Below are positions 90 through 3,446 of a stretch of 5,733 nt of DNA, one piece after another. The position numbers were made by a program, and so were the translations under genes. The first letter of the stretch is position 1. Each line of letters starts with the position of its first letter. Below the pieces are notes generated by a model. It had not been told where the DNA came from. It did no database searches and saw nothing but the letters and a program-made list of their open reading frames with translations. Origin of the DNA: Bacteroidales bacterium (lineage in GTDB: Bacteria > Bacteroidota > Bacteroidia > Bacteroidales > F082). The DNA is taken from NCBI GenBank assembly GCA_016281295.1, contig JAEEII010000082.1:1-5733 (forward strand), given 5' to 3'.

Positions 90-360
90 TTAAAGTATAT
101 CCATTCCATGTGTCCGTTGCCTGCTGTTCATGGTCTACAGTACATGGACCTAAGCGTCCAACGTAATGCGTATGCTGCTATGACCAAGCCGTTCAGAAAC
201 GACCTTGATATTTACTCCGGCTTCCAGCAGTCATGTCGGCGGAGTATGGCGCATATCGTGGACGCGGAACTTCCAGTCGATACCGCGGCAATATCCAGAA
301 GCTGTTTAAAGTCAAGCCCTGAGAAGGAACTGAGGGCGCGGGCTTGCCGTTCAAGGTTTG
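90..360 (-). pseudogene. Degenerate tyrosine recombinase/integrase, C-terminal catalytic domain
   Basis: Reading the minus strand gives an unmistakable phage-type integrase C-terminus in pieces. FKQLLDIA (310-287) is followed, after a 2-base frame slip, by GIDWKFRVHDMRHT, then LLEAG, then NIKVVSERLGHSSIRITLD. HDMRH (246-260) is the HxxRH box and LGHSS (174-188) the second His box of phage integrase family catalytic domains. An in-frame TGA (231-233) breaks the HT..T.LLEAG segment. A TAG (150-152) stands where the catalytic Tyr of the usual T-Y-x-H-V motif belongs, with VHVL right after it. A second TAG (135-137) follows, and the frame ends with TAA at 90-92. A weakly recognisable LNGKP (354-340), the turn before this domain in relatives, lies in yet another frame. 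Nothing of the N-terminal arm-binding domain or the first catalytic Arg is present, so the gene is truncated as well as broken. It reads away from the RTX gene. Confidence 0.88.
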
Positions 361-525: not shown

Positions 526-2937
526 ATGGCCATAGTAAAAGGAACCGCAAAGGTTGACAAATTTACCTTAAACACAAGCAACGTCATCGTTGTGACCGGC
601 AAGAATAGTTCGACAACGAAATTATCGAATAAAGGAAAAAACAGAATATACGGCGCTGCCGGAAAAGATACCTTTAACATCAAAGGCGGCAAGCACAATT
701 ACATATACGGCGATAAAGGTAACGATACCATCACCGTAACCAGTAAAATCGGATTCGGCAATAAAATTTACGGCGACGATGCCAGGAACAAGGTATCCGG
801 CAACGACACTTTTAATATCAACGGCGGAAAGAAAAACTACTTCTACGGCGGTAAGGGAACTGACACTTTTAATATCAATGGCGGTACTTCCAATTACCTT
901 TACGGCGGCGCAGGAAAGGATATATATATTTTTGGCAAGAAGAAAGCTACTGCTATTATCAAAGATTATGCTGCCGGTCAGGATACGCTGAAAGTAAACA
1001 GCGGGACCATCACTTCAACAACGCTTAAGGGCAAAGATGTAACATTCAAAGCCGGTAAAGCCAGCGTAACACTGACCGGCGCCGCAACAAAGACTATCAG
1101 CCTGAAAGACAGCCGCGGCAGTTATACGGCTTCCAAGACACAAATCAAACTGGGCACTAATTTTACCGGCACGATGGATGCCACCAAGTATTTATCCACC
1201 GTGAAGACCGTCGACGGGCGCAGTGCGGCAAAGACAGTAAACATTACAGGAAATAAACAGAATAATACTATTTACGCGGGTAAAGCCGGCGGTACGCTCA
1301 ACGGCGGAGCAGGCAACGACACGATTACCATCAACGACGGTACACAAACCAAAGGGAACAGTTACACCCTGCGCGGCGGTACCGGCACAGATAATTATGT
1401 AATCAGTTCCGCAATTATCGCAGGCACGAAAATTTTGATAAATCAAAGCGATTTCAATTCCGGGGACATGGATGTTTTAACACTGGCAAAAGTCAATAAA
1501 AATGATGTAACGTACCGCCTTGACAGCGGAACCCTGGTTATTACACACAAAAGCGGGGGAACTGTGTCCGTAGCAGGCTGGGGGACGAATCCGTTGTCGA
1601 AAATACAGTTTGCGGACGCAGACCCAATTACCAGCGGAGATATTAACGGGTCCCTGGATCCGTCGCCTTCCTACAAGGTAATAGAAATCAATACGACCGG
1701 GACCTATCAGGGCAGCAACAGTCAGGAAATCTTCCGGTTCGGCGGCAACGGCTGGAATGCGACCGTCCAGGGCGCCGACAGTAAGGATATCCTTGACTTC
1801 AGCAATTATAAAGACGGCACTTACGATTTTGACAACGTCCTTCGGTCCGGAGACGACTTGACCCTGTCTTTTGTTCGGAAAACAGGTTCCCAGGAAGATG
1901 AAGTCGTAGGAACCGTCACAATTAAAGATTATTTTGTAACGGATAACAAAATCGCAAGCGTACAATGGTACAATGCCAGTGAAAACAAAACAGAAACCGT
2001 GACAATCGTAACGGAATGCAACGGCACCAACAATTATGGCGGGGTTATCAACGGGACACCTCAAAGAGACTGGATCATTCCGGGAACTTCTGCCAATACT
2101 GTTAACGGGTTGGCAAGCAACGACCGGATCAATATAGTCGGAGGGGCATTCCGGTCCGTTAACGCCGGTGACGGCGATGATTTCATTACGGTAACAGGCG
2201 GAAACCACGAAAGCGGTTCTATTTCAGGCAGAGAAGGTAATGATACCATTATTATCAGTAACGGAGCCTTCGTAGATATAATTTACGGTCATGAAGGGAC
2301 GAATACGATTACAGTTAAAGGGGGCGCAAGCGTAAGATCAATACGGGCCGATTATGATAACGAGGATAACCCGGACACTACTAATGCAGACATGATTACT
2401 ATCGAAAAAGACGCGGGCGCCGTTTCAAGCATTTATTTAAATACGGGCAACAACACGGTTAACATTGCAGGTGGAACCCAGGGAGAAAACGGGCTTTCCG
2501 TCATTTCGGAAGACGATGAAAAATACTACTCCGGAACAAACGTTATAAATGTTTCCGTCGGAAACGTCACAATCAAACAGAGTAAAAAAGGGGAAAGCCA
2601 TGTAAACGTACAGTGGTCAGACAACTTCGGAGTACTGACGATTCAGCGGAACAACAAAGCATCCCAGGATCTCTTTGAAAAAACTTTAACCATCAACGGC
2701 GCGGATTTAAGTGACTTTACCATCACAAGACTGGATAACCAGGATATGGGTATTTGCCTGACTGATAAGACAAGATCCAACGCTGTAATTAATTTGTATT
2801 GGGGAAATTCAATCACTTATAACGGAACAACTATTTTAGGACTCGAAGCCTTAAAATACGAAGGAATTACATTCAATAATACATTAGTACCTGTTACTGA
2901 ACTATACGCTTATATGACAAACCAGACAAATCCGTAA
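526..2937 (+). CDS. RTX-type (haemolysin-like) calcium-binding repeat protein, orphan
   Basis: Predicted secreted or surface protein of 803 residues; no enzymatic function is recognisable. GGAGG at 514-518 lies 7 bases before the ATG, fixing the start. Residues 41-136 are about five tandem units of the form (I/F/L)YGxxGxDTFNIxGGxxNY, resembling RTX nonapeptide repeats (GGxGxDxUx), which in known proteins bind Ca2+ and form beta-rolls. A single canonical GGAGNDTI lies at 260-267. Residues 332-364 (LVI..SGGTVSVAGW...IQFADA) and about 442-481 (SGDDLTLSF...VTIKDYF...IASVQW) resemble the haemolysin-type calcium-binding related domain. Residues 546-670 form a second block (AGDGDDFITVTGG, GREGNDTIIISNG, GHEGTNTITVKGG) that looks like a beta-solenoid. 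No Sec signal or membrane segment is visible; known RTX proteins leave by type I secretion using a C-terminal signal, but no such transporter gene is in the window. There is no N-terminal toxin, protease or lipase domain. It could be an adhesin, matrix or S-layer-like protein. Confidence 0.85.
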   Translation: MAIVKGTAKVDKFTLNTSNVIVVTGKNSSTTKLSNKGKNRIYGAAGKDTFNIKGGKHNYIYGDKGNDTITVTSKIGFGNKIYGDDARNKVSGNDTFNINGGKKNYFYGGKGTDTFNINGGTSNYLYGGAGKDIYIFGKKKATAIIKDYAAGQDTLKVNSGTITSTTLKGKDVTFKAGKASVTLTGAATKTISLKDSRGSYTASKTQIKLGTNFTGTMDATKYLSTVKTVDGRSAAKTVNITGNKQNNTIYAGKAGGTLNGGAGNDTITINDGTQTKGNSYTLRGGTGTDNYVISSAIIAGTKILINQSDFNSGDMDVLTLAKVNKNDVTYRLDSGTLVITHKSGGTVSVAGWGTNPLSKIQFADADPITSGDINGSLDPSPSYKVIEINTTGTYQGSNSQEIFRFGGNGWNATVQGADSKDILDFSNYKDGTYDFDNVLRSGDDLTLSFVRKTGSQEDEVVGTVTIKDYFVTDNKIASVQWYNASENKTETVTIVTECNGTNNYGGVINGTPQRDWIIPGTSANTVNGLASNDRINIVGGAFRSVNAGDGDDFITVTGGNHESGSISGREGNDTIIISNGAFVDIIYGHEGTNTITVKGGASVRSIRADYDNEDNPDTTNADMITIEKDAGAVSSIYLNTGNNTVNIAGGTQGENGLSVISEDDEKYYSGTNVINVSVGNVTIKQSKKGESHVNVQWSDNFGVLTIQRNNKASQDLFEKTLTINGADLSDFTITRLDNQDMGICLTDKTRSNAVINLYWGNSITYNGTTILGLEALKYEGITFNNTLVPVTELYAYMTNQTNP
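646..933 (+). repeat. Tandem coding repeat of the RTX gene, about 19 codons per unit
   Basis: This encodes residues 41-136. Units begin at residues 41, 60, 81, 106 and 125. Two units are nearly identical at DNA level: the 23-base segments at 805-827 and 862-884, both encoding DTFNINGG, differ at one base and lie exactly 57 bases (19 codons) apart. This points to fairly recent duplication or gene conversion within the gene. Confidence 0.8.
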
Positions 2938-3014
2938 TTTCTTTTTATGAGGAAGCGGGGAATATGTTAATTTTTAGCTGACAAGCCCCAACTTATCATG
3001 GTAATTATTCAACA

Positions 3015-3049
3015 GCCGTGGAAATTCAACTTCCGCGGCGGTCTTGTTT
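3015..3049 (+). terminator. Probable terminator after the RTX gene
   Basis: GCCGTGGAA (3015-3023) pairs with TTCCGCGGC (3031-3039) with one G-U pair and a 7-base loop. The stem is strong, but the following GGTCTTGTTTA is a poor T-run, so termination may be incomplete. It lies 78 bases after the stop codon. Confidence 0.5.
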
Positions 3050-3245
3050 ATAGTATGGGAAATTACAATTTGTCGGCATAGTCACTGGCTGATACATAAC
3101 TATAATATGTAAAAAAGTATATTCAACTTCTTGCTTTTGTTTGTTAAAGTGAACATGACGTTGTGTAGCCAAAAAGGTAGCCAATAGCCAAAAAAACATT
3201 AAAAATGGACGGAAAATGTTTACAATATGATGATGAAATGGACAT
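3050..3245. other. Gene-free island end with TAGCCA direct repeats
   Basis: No credible gene is seen in this stretch, part of a gene-free interval from 2938 to 3573. TAGCCA occurs three times (3166-3171, 3178-3183, 3185-3190), with the longer form TAGCCAAAAA at 3166-3175 and 3185-3194. Short direct repeats 100-150 bases from a crossover resemble arm-type binding sites of tyrosine integrases; that role is inference. A TATAAT at 3101-3106 has no adequate -35 partner. Confidence 0.35.
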
Positions 3246-3309
3246 AAAAAACGCCGAATTTGGCAGAATTGTTACAGTAAAAATGGTTGTAACAGCCAGT
3301 TCGGCTTTT
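3246..3309. repeat. Long imperfect inverted repeat abutting the integration site, terminator-like
   Basis: TGTTACA (3270-3276) pairs perfectly with TGTAACA (3288-3294) around an 11-base loop. TGGC (3261-3264) pairs with GCCA (3295-3298) across a 5-base left bulge. GCCGAA (3253-3258) pairs with TTCGGC (3300-3305). That gives 17 pairs in all. An A-run precedes the stem and TTTT (3306-3309) follows it, so it has the form of a Rho-independent terminator in both directions. Its right foot coincides with the start of the tRNA-derived sequence. It may terminate transcription at the element end, bind recombination proteins, or both. Confidence 0.5.
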
Positions 3310-3366
3310 GCTAAATCGTTAGGGGTCGCAAGGCTCGCCCGAGTTCGAATCTCGGCCACTCCGCCA
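3307..3366 (+). other. attR-like site: 3' fragment of tRNA-Ser(GCU)
   Basis: From the anticodon loop onward this is a class II serine tRNA. The loop TTGCTAA (3308-3314) carries anticodon GCT at 3310-3312. A long variable arm (about 3320-3338) is followed by T-arm CCGAG-TTCGAAT-CTCGG (3339-3355), acceptor strand CCACTCC (3356-3362), discriminator G and encoded CCA (3364-3366). The 5' half is missing: no GGAGTGG acceptor strand or D-arm lies upstream, and the bases left of the loop (GGCTT) cannot pair with the 3' anticodon strand ATCGT. It therefore cannot be a working tRNA. A break at the anticodon loop is a known crossover position for tyrosine integrases using tRNA genes. The intact tRNA-Ser copy is expected to the left, outside the window. 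Confidence 0.85.
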
Positions 3367-3380
3367 TATTTCTGGCATAC

Positions 3381-3417
3381 AAGCATCTGGTGAAAATACC
3401 GGATGCTTATTTTTTTT
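3381..3417 (+). terminator. Rho-independent terminator, originally of the tRNA-Ser gene
   Basis: AAGCATCTGGT (3381-3391) pairs with ACCGGATGCTT (3398-3408) with one G-U pair and a 6-base loop, followed by ATTTTTTTT. It starts 15 bases after the tRNA CCA. It is the expected terminator of the original tRNA gene, now separated from that gene's promoter. It would also insulate the downstream gene from island transcription. Confidence 0.88.
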
Positions 3418-3446
3418 GCCAAATAAAGAACAATTACAGCAAGCTG

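Follow-up and report, generated by a model that had tools for sequence, protein, structure and literature searches.

The right-hand part of the window, by which we mean the whole 5733-base stretch of DNA that was analysed, carries a gamma-glutamyltranspeptidase-family (GGT) gene (PF01019; 3574..5250, forward strand) followed by the start of an obgE-like gene (PF01018; 5302..5733, forward strand) that is cut by the end of the record, both identified as open reading frames with Pfam matches. An earlier note, made from the sequence alone, had named these two genes as the chromosomal side of an island border, and the assignment stands, with the GGT gene also found downstream of the same tRNA gene in relatives. 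The GGT protein is 95% identical to that of the rumen MAG RUG140 (locus L001), 82% identical to that of S. ruminis DSM 9236 (L004), and 76–86% identical to those of the other eight of the ten closest loci; the host is a Succiniclasticum relative from the rumen.

Upstream of the GGT gene, and displaced at the right border of the proposed island, lies the 3' half of a tRNA-Ser(GCU) gene (3307..3366, forward strand; ARAGORN, BLAST and alignment with relatives). It comprises the last base of the 5' anticodon-stem strand, the anticodon loop (GCT), the variable arm, the T-arm, the acceptor strand and CCA, and both base reading and identity to relatives bear out the earlier description of a fragment intact from anticodon loop to CCA. 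ARAGORN detected no tRNA in the window, indicating that the 5' half is absent. The intact locus of S. ruminis DSM 9236 is 100% identical over 110 nt to window positions 3307–3416, terminator included (BLAST, E about 1e-52), and this identity breaks off sharply at 3307, as expected if unrelated sequence had replaced the 5' half, which the earlier note had claimed. The original chromosomal terminator of the tRNA gene (3381..3408, forward strand), reported there as still in place, was recovered by a terminator scan and is the same in all nine aligned relatives.

We searched for the junction in two sets of sequences. Positions 3307–3420 matched nine of 80 GGT loci by BLAST, at 90–100% identity, and positions 3230–3420 matched 43 of 59 genomes of the family. 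In all 12 of the strongest-matching genomes the best match began exactly at 3307, a few of the weaker matches began at 3306 or within the tRNA half, and none of the 59 had a match running from that half into the 76 bases upstream of 3306. The shared block therefore runs from the anticodon loop to the 3' end of the tRNA; its start at 3307 agrees with the crossover that had been placed at about 3306–3310, the exact points of strand exchange inside the block not being readable from the sequence. Viral contigs yielded nothing useful when searched for a 24-nt stretch of the tRNA half (exact match) or for the 22-nt junction, and an Rfam search of the window returned two matches, both far below gathering scores. 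Abutting the tRNA half on its left is a terminator-like hairpin (3253..3305, forward strand; arms GCCGAA.. and ..TTCGGC, then TTTT) recognised by eye and by folding (z −3.89 for 3235–3420). We considered it as a common border feature and did not use it as one because, of the comparator elements described below, one (G033) has such a hairpin by eye and two (G035 and G045) have none by eye.

The tRNA segment was found upstream of the GGT gene in nine of the ten closest loci (L001–L006 and L008–L010); the exception, L007, a MAG labelled Desulfovibrio, has a tmRNA there. Aligned with the window, the nine show identity to it from 3307 onward and none before that base, and the order of tRNA-Ser(GCU), terminator and, 0.2 to 2.7 kb on, GGT gene is close to what the earlier note had predicted for island-free relatives. 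None of the relatives examined carries the same half tRNA at this locus. ARAGORN reported a tRNA-Ser gene at the match in 29 of 31 fetched loci, the exceptions being L001 (genome G001) and the end of one G002 contig, and 11 of the 12 strongest-matching genomes have an intact gene. A 23-nt extra match in G002, a candidate second border, was rejected: it is a contig end that overlaps the intact copy through its 5' half. Because identity to relatives begins at 3307, where they have an intact tRNA followed by the same terminator and GGT gene, the sequence from that base rightward is chromosomal and everything to its left is inserted DNA. The left part has a G+C content of 35–51%, the chromosomal genes mostly one of 50–57%. 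The locus thus has a displaced 3' tRNA fragment at one border and an empty site in relatives, which together characterise a tRNA island.

The relatives also vary around the tRNA. As named by reading the sequences, L003 and L004 have a transporter and a LysR-type gene between the tRNA and the GGT gene, and the tRNA is preceded by a transporter gene in L001, L003 and L004. In L001 the tRNA-Ser(GCU) (1399–1476), the sole match in that genome, retains both halves and has a 14-nt deletion in the D-arm. The upstream transporter gene on the same contig also lacks an internal stretch that L003 and L004 have, and the D-arm deletion is therefore likely to be an assembly error, though the gene may be a real D-arm-less tRNA.

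At the left end of the window, on the reverse strand, lies a remnant of the C-terminus of a tyrosine integrase (90..305, ends approximate; tblastn and DNA matches), with tblastn similarity and three in-frame stops between 120 and 284. The integrase of G045 aligns with it at 62% identity over 55 residues (tblastn, E 9e-16); a 26-residue piece of the remnant hits PF00589 below the curated cut-off (E 7e-4), and one of 24 residues has no match. The N-terminal part was not found by tblastn and its expected place is occupied by another gene, described below, indicating that the integrase gene is truncated. The visible 3.3 kb of the island hold no complete integrase; a working copy may lie further left.

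At the DNA level, G045 and G033 are the only two of the 59 family genomes matched by the integrase region, and each has an element with tRNA-Ser(GCU) at one end and an orphan 3' half at the other. The best three matches of the remnant among 35 integrase loci were G045, G033 and G035, all with elements at tRNA-Ser(GCU), a ranking that is only suggestive because most of the set had been chosen for likeness to the G045 integrase; the 59-genome DNA search is the less biased test. At class level, the first 330 bases matched 10 of 380 genomes, eight of them in the integrase region, and none of five fetched matches outside the family had a tRNA in its flanks. Within the family, 13 of 30 integrase loci had a tRNA in the fetched flanks: two (G045 and G035) lay near tRNA-Ser(GCU) and the other 11 beside different tRNAs.

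The pairing of an intact tRNA-Ser(GCU) with an orphan 3' half was found in three family genomes. In G033 the two bracket about 17 kb with an integrase inside (contig C27), and in G045 (contig C23) the tRNA and the integrase are 116 bp apart and the orphan half lies about 23 kb on. In G035 one contig carries the tRNA–integrase pair, with the integrase stop 173 bp from the regenerated tRNA, and another the orphan half (C46/C44); because the variable arm of the tRNA differs from that of the orphan half, the element appears to have brought a 3' half of its own. The orphan half begins at the same base in G033 and G035 as in the window, and one base earlier in G045. Directly beyond the G045 orphan half is a second, different integrase (L177, 6313–7790), which suggests two elements in a row at that tRNA. 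Elsewhere in the family, a diverged orphan half lies about 0.8 kb from an intact tRNA in G024 (contig C9; L139, 2312–3277), separated from it by two small genes that by eye resemble a toxin–antitoxin pair, and a 27-nt piece from T-arm to CCA, 93% identical, lies at 1027–1053 of L200 (G014, contig C30), where no tRNA was found.

Inside the border of the window, 142 nt from the orphan half, lies a tandem repeat (3165..3191, forward strand) in which GTAGCCAA occurs twice at a period of 12, followed by a third TAGCCAA. We presume, from general knowledge of this enzyme class, that these repeats are arm-type sites of the integrase. Tandem repeats of period 11–12 also lie inside the borders of the comparator elements, at both ends in G045, G035 and G033 and at the right end in the window, with distances to the orphan half of 132, 133 and 130 nt, respectively. 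In shuffle tests an equally long run occurred in 13 of 500 shuffles for the window, 0 and 3 for G035, and 5 and 2 for G045; the two repeats of G033, taken alone, are within chance (51 and 75 of 500 shuffles as long). In the first 200 bases of the window the best arm-like repeat was not significant, 276 of 500 shuffles doing as well. A longer AT-rich run (10, period 10), equalled in 0 of 500 shuffles, lies past the tRNA half on the chromosomal side, so an arm site is not identified by run length alone. When shuffles also had to reproduce the distance and period seen in the comparators, 16 of 5000 qualified, under criteria set after the comparators had been viewed.

In the nine relatives, the stretch after the tRNA was matched by 0 of 500 shuffles in L002 and by 40 to 479 of 500 in the other eight. 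Repeats of GGTGGACAA type, resembling the arm-like repeats of G045, lie just past the tRNA terminator beside the intact tRNA in L002, L006 and L010; among the three, only that of L002 is significant by run length, and integrase similarity was not found between tRNA and GGT gene in any of them. These repeats are possibly scars of past elements.

Between the integrase remnant and the repeats, an open reading frame of 803 aa encodes an RTX-type repeat protein, the apparent cargo of the island (526..2937, forward strand; identified from protein-database relatives). It has 360 relatives at E 0.001 or better, with PF00353 annotated on most of the 120 listed, and no Pfam family at E 0.001 in its own sequence. 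The gene is unmatched in 58 of the 59 family genomes, with a distant match in the remaining one (G006), and the protein gave nothing useful in viral contigs. No useful match to the left 3306 bases was found in phage and plasmid records, and no phage structural or lysis genes were recognised in the visible 3.3 kb, which may be a small part of the island. A terminator-type sequence at about 3003–3071 recurs in seven of the 59 family genomes, in several copies in some, and in two loci (L112 and L113) it sits after small genes that we take, from their appearance, to encode Nif11-type peptide precursors.

We propose that an integrative element entered tRNA-Ser(GCU) by means of a tyrosine integrase and left its right attachment-site border at 3307, and we hold this to be likely. 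The half tRNA, the empty sites in relatives, the integrase remnant, the repeats and the same architecture in three comparator genomes were each observed directly, and they agree with the earlier note in placing the right border of an island at the half tRNA. Weighing against the proposal are a record that shows neither a left border with an intact tRNA nor a complete integrase, the modest repeat statistics, the repeat beside an intact tRNA in L002, and the class-level integrase matches outside the family, five of which had no tRNA in their flanks. The element would have carried its own copy of the tRNA-Ser(GCU) 3' half, and the integrase, presumably bound to the tandem repeats at 3165–3191 about 140 nt inside the border, would have recombined it with the chromosomal gene at the anticodon loop. 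The 3' half of the element would then have completed the host 5' half at a predicted left end outside the record, pushing the original 3' half and terminator of the host to the right end, now 3307–3408. Later truncation and stop codons in the integrase would probably have fixed the insertion in place, barring the action of another integrase.

The protein database places the RTX-type protein of the window on a contig no longer than 5733 bases, and the window is therefore taken to be the entire record, which stops at base 1 and includes only the right border. A minimal relic of only about 3.4 kb, with one RTX-type gene and a dead integrase between its attachment sites, that persists or moves only by means of an integrase from elsewhere, seems unlikely; as the remnant ends near base 90 and the integrase stops lie 116 bp (G045) and 173 bp (G035) from the tRNA, so short an island would put the intact tRNA just off the left edge.

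About 3 kb separate the remnant from the border, and the second integrase of G045 indicates that more than one element can occupy tRNA-Ser(GCU), so the remnant at 90–305 and the border at 3307 could stem from different insertions at the same tRNA. We regard such a nested array as quite improbable: no second tRNA fragment is apparent between 305 and 3307, ARAGORN having found no tRNA and none of the 20 repeat families listed of 31 overlapping 3307–3366, and one element is the simpler reading. That the junction is a chimera, with unrelated DNA joined to a tRNA in assembly, might be suspected of a record of 5733 bases whose closest MAG (G001) itself seems to contain assembly errors at this locus. 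It is nevertheless very improbable: complete elements predict a junction at just this base, the insert contains an integrase remnant akin to the integrases found at this same tRNA, and the terminator-type sequence of the insert recurs in the family. Scarcely credible is a rearrangement that dispensed with an integrase, a deletion or homologous recombination that removed the 5' half and brought other DNA beside the 3' half. Orphan tRNA pieces can arise by other routes and the visible 3.3 kb lack a working integrase, but the break lies at the anticodon loop, as in the comparator elements, and losing the 5' half with no second copy would mean loss of the tRNA-Ser(GCU) gene, the sole one matched in most of the strong genomes. 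Integrase-mediated insertion of a single element remains our preferred reading.

Insertion into tRNA genes is a common route by which mobile DNA enters bacterial chromosomes, and the finding leaves knowledge of the mechanism unchanged. It does add tRNA-Ser(GCU) as an integration site in Succiniclasticum-like rumen bacteria and elsewhere in their family, and links that site to one integrase group. The border coordinates help to map islands in fragmented rumen metagenomes, and an orphan tRNA half on a short contig can be tied to an integrase even when the latter is decayed. A literature search on Succiniclasticum islands, prophages and tRNA-Ser returned no paper naming Succiniclasticum, which is no proof of absence in print.

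The island shares with the elements of G033, G035 and G045 its target tRNA, the start of the shared block (one base earlier in G045), a related integrase and tandem repeats of period 11–12 inside the border. The elements of G033 and G045 differ in their lengths of about 17 and 23 kb, their intact integrases and their many more genes, the visible 3.3 kb of the window amounting to one RTX-type gene and an integrase remnant. More broadly, the Islander paper describes the signature of a tRNA gene plus a displaced fragment, with anticodon-centred sites common: of its 3919 candidate islands, 3760 have a 3' fragment and 2083 an anticodon-centred site (PMC4383910). Integrating elements are likewise described as leaving tRNA fragments (PMC9897764). 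Against these accounts the border in the window is of the ordinary kind; its host is Succiniclasticum-like and its integrase decayed, and the island is apparently a decayed example of a well-known kind. It departs from the Islander islands in that its regenerated tRNA lies outside the record and the sole integrase seen is a remnant; it resembles the anticodon-centred islands described there in its tyrosine integrase, its tRNA split at the anticodon loop and the displaced 3' fragment at one border (PMC4383910).
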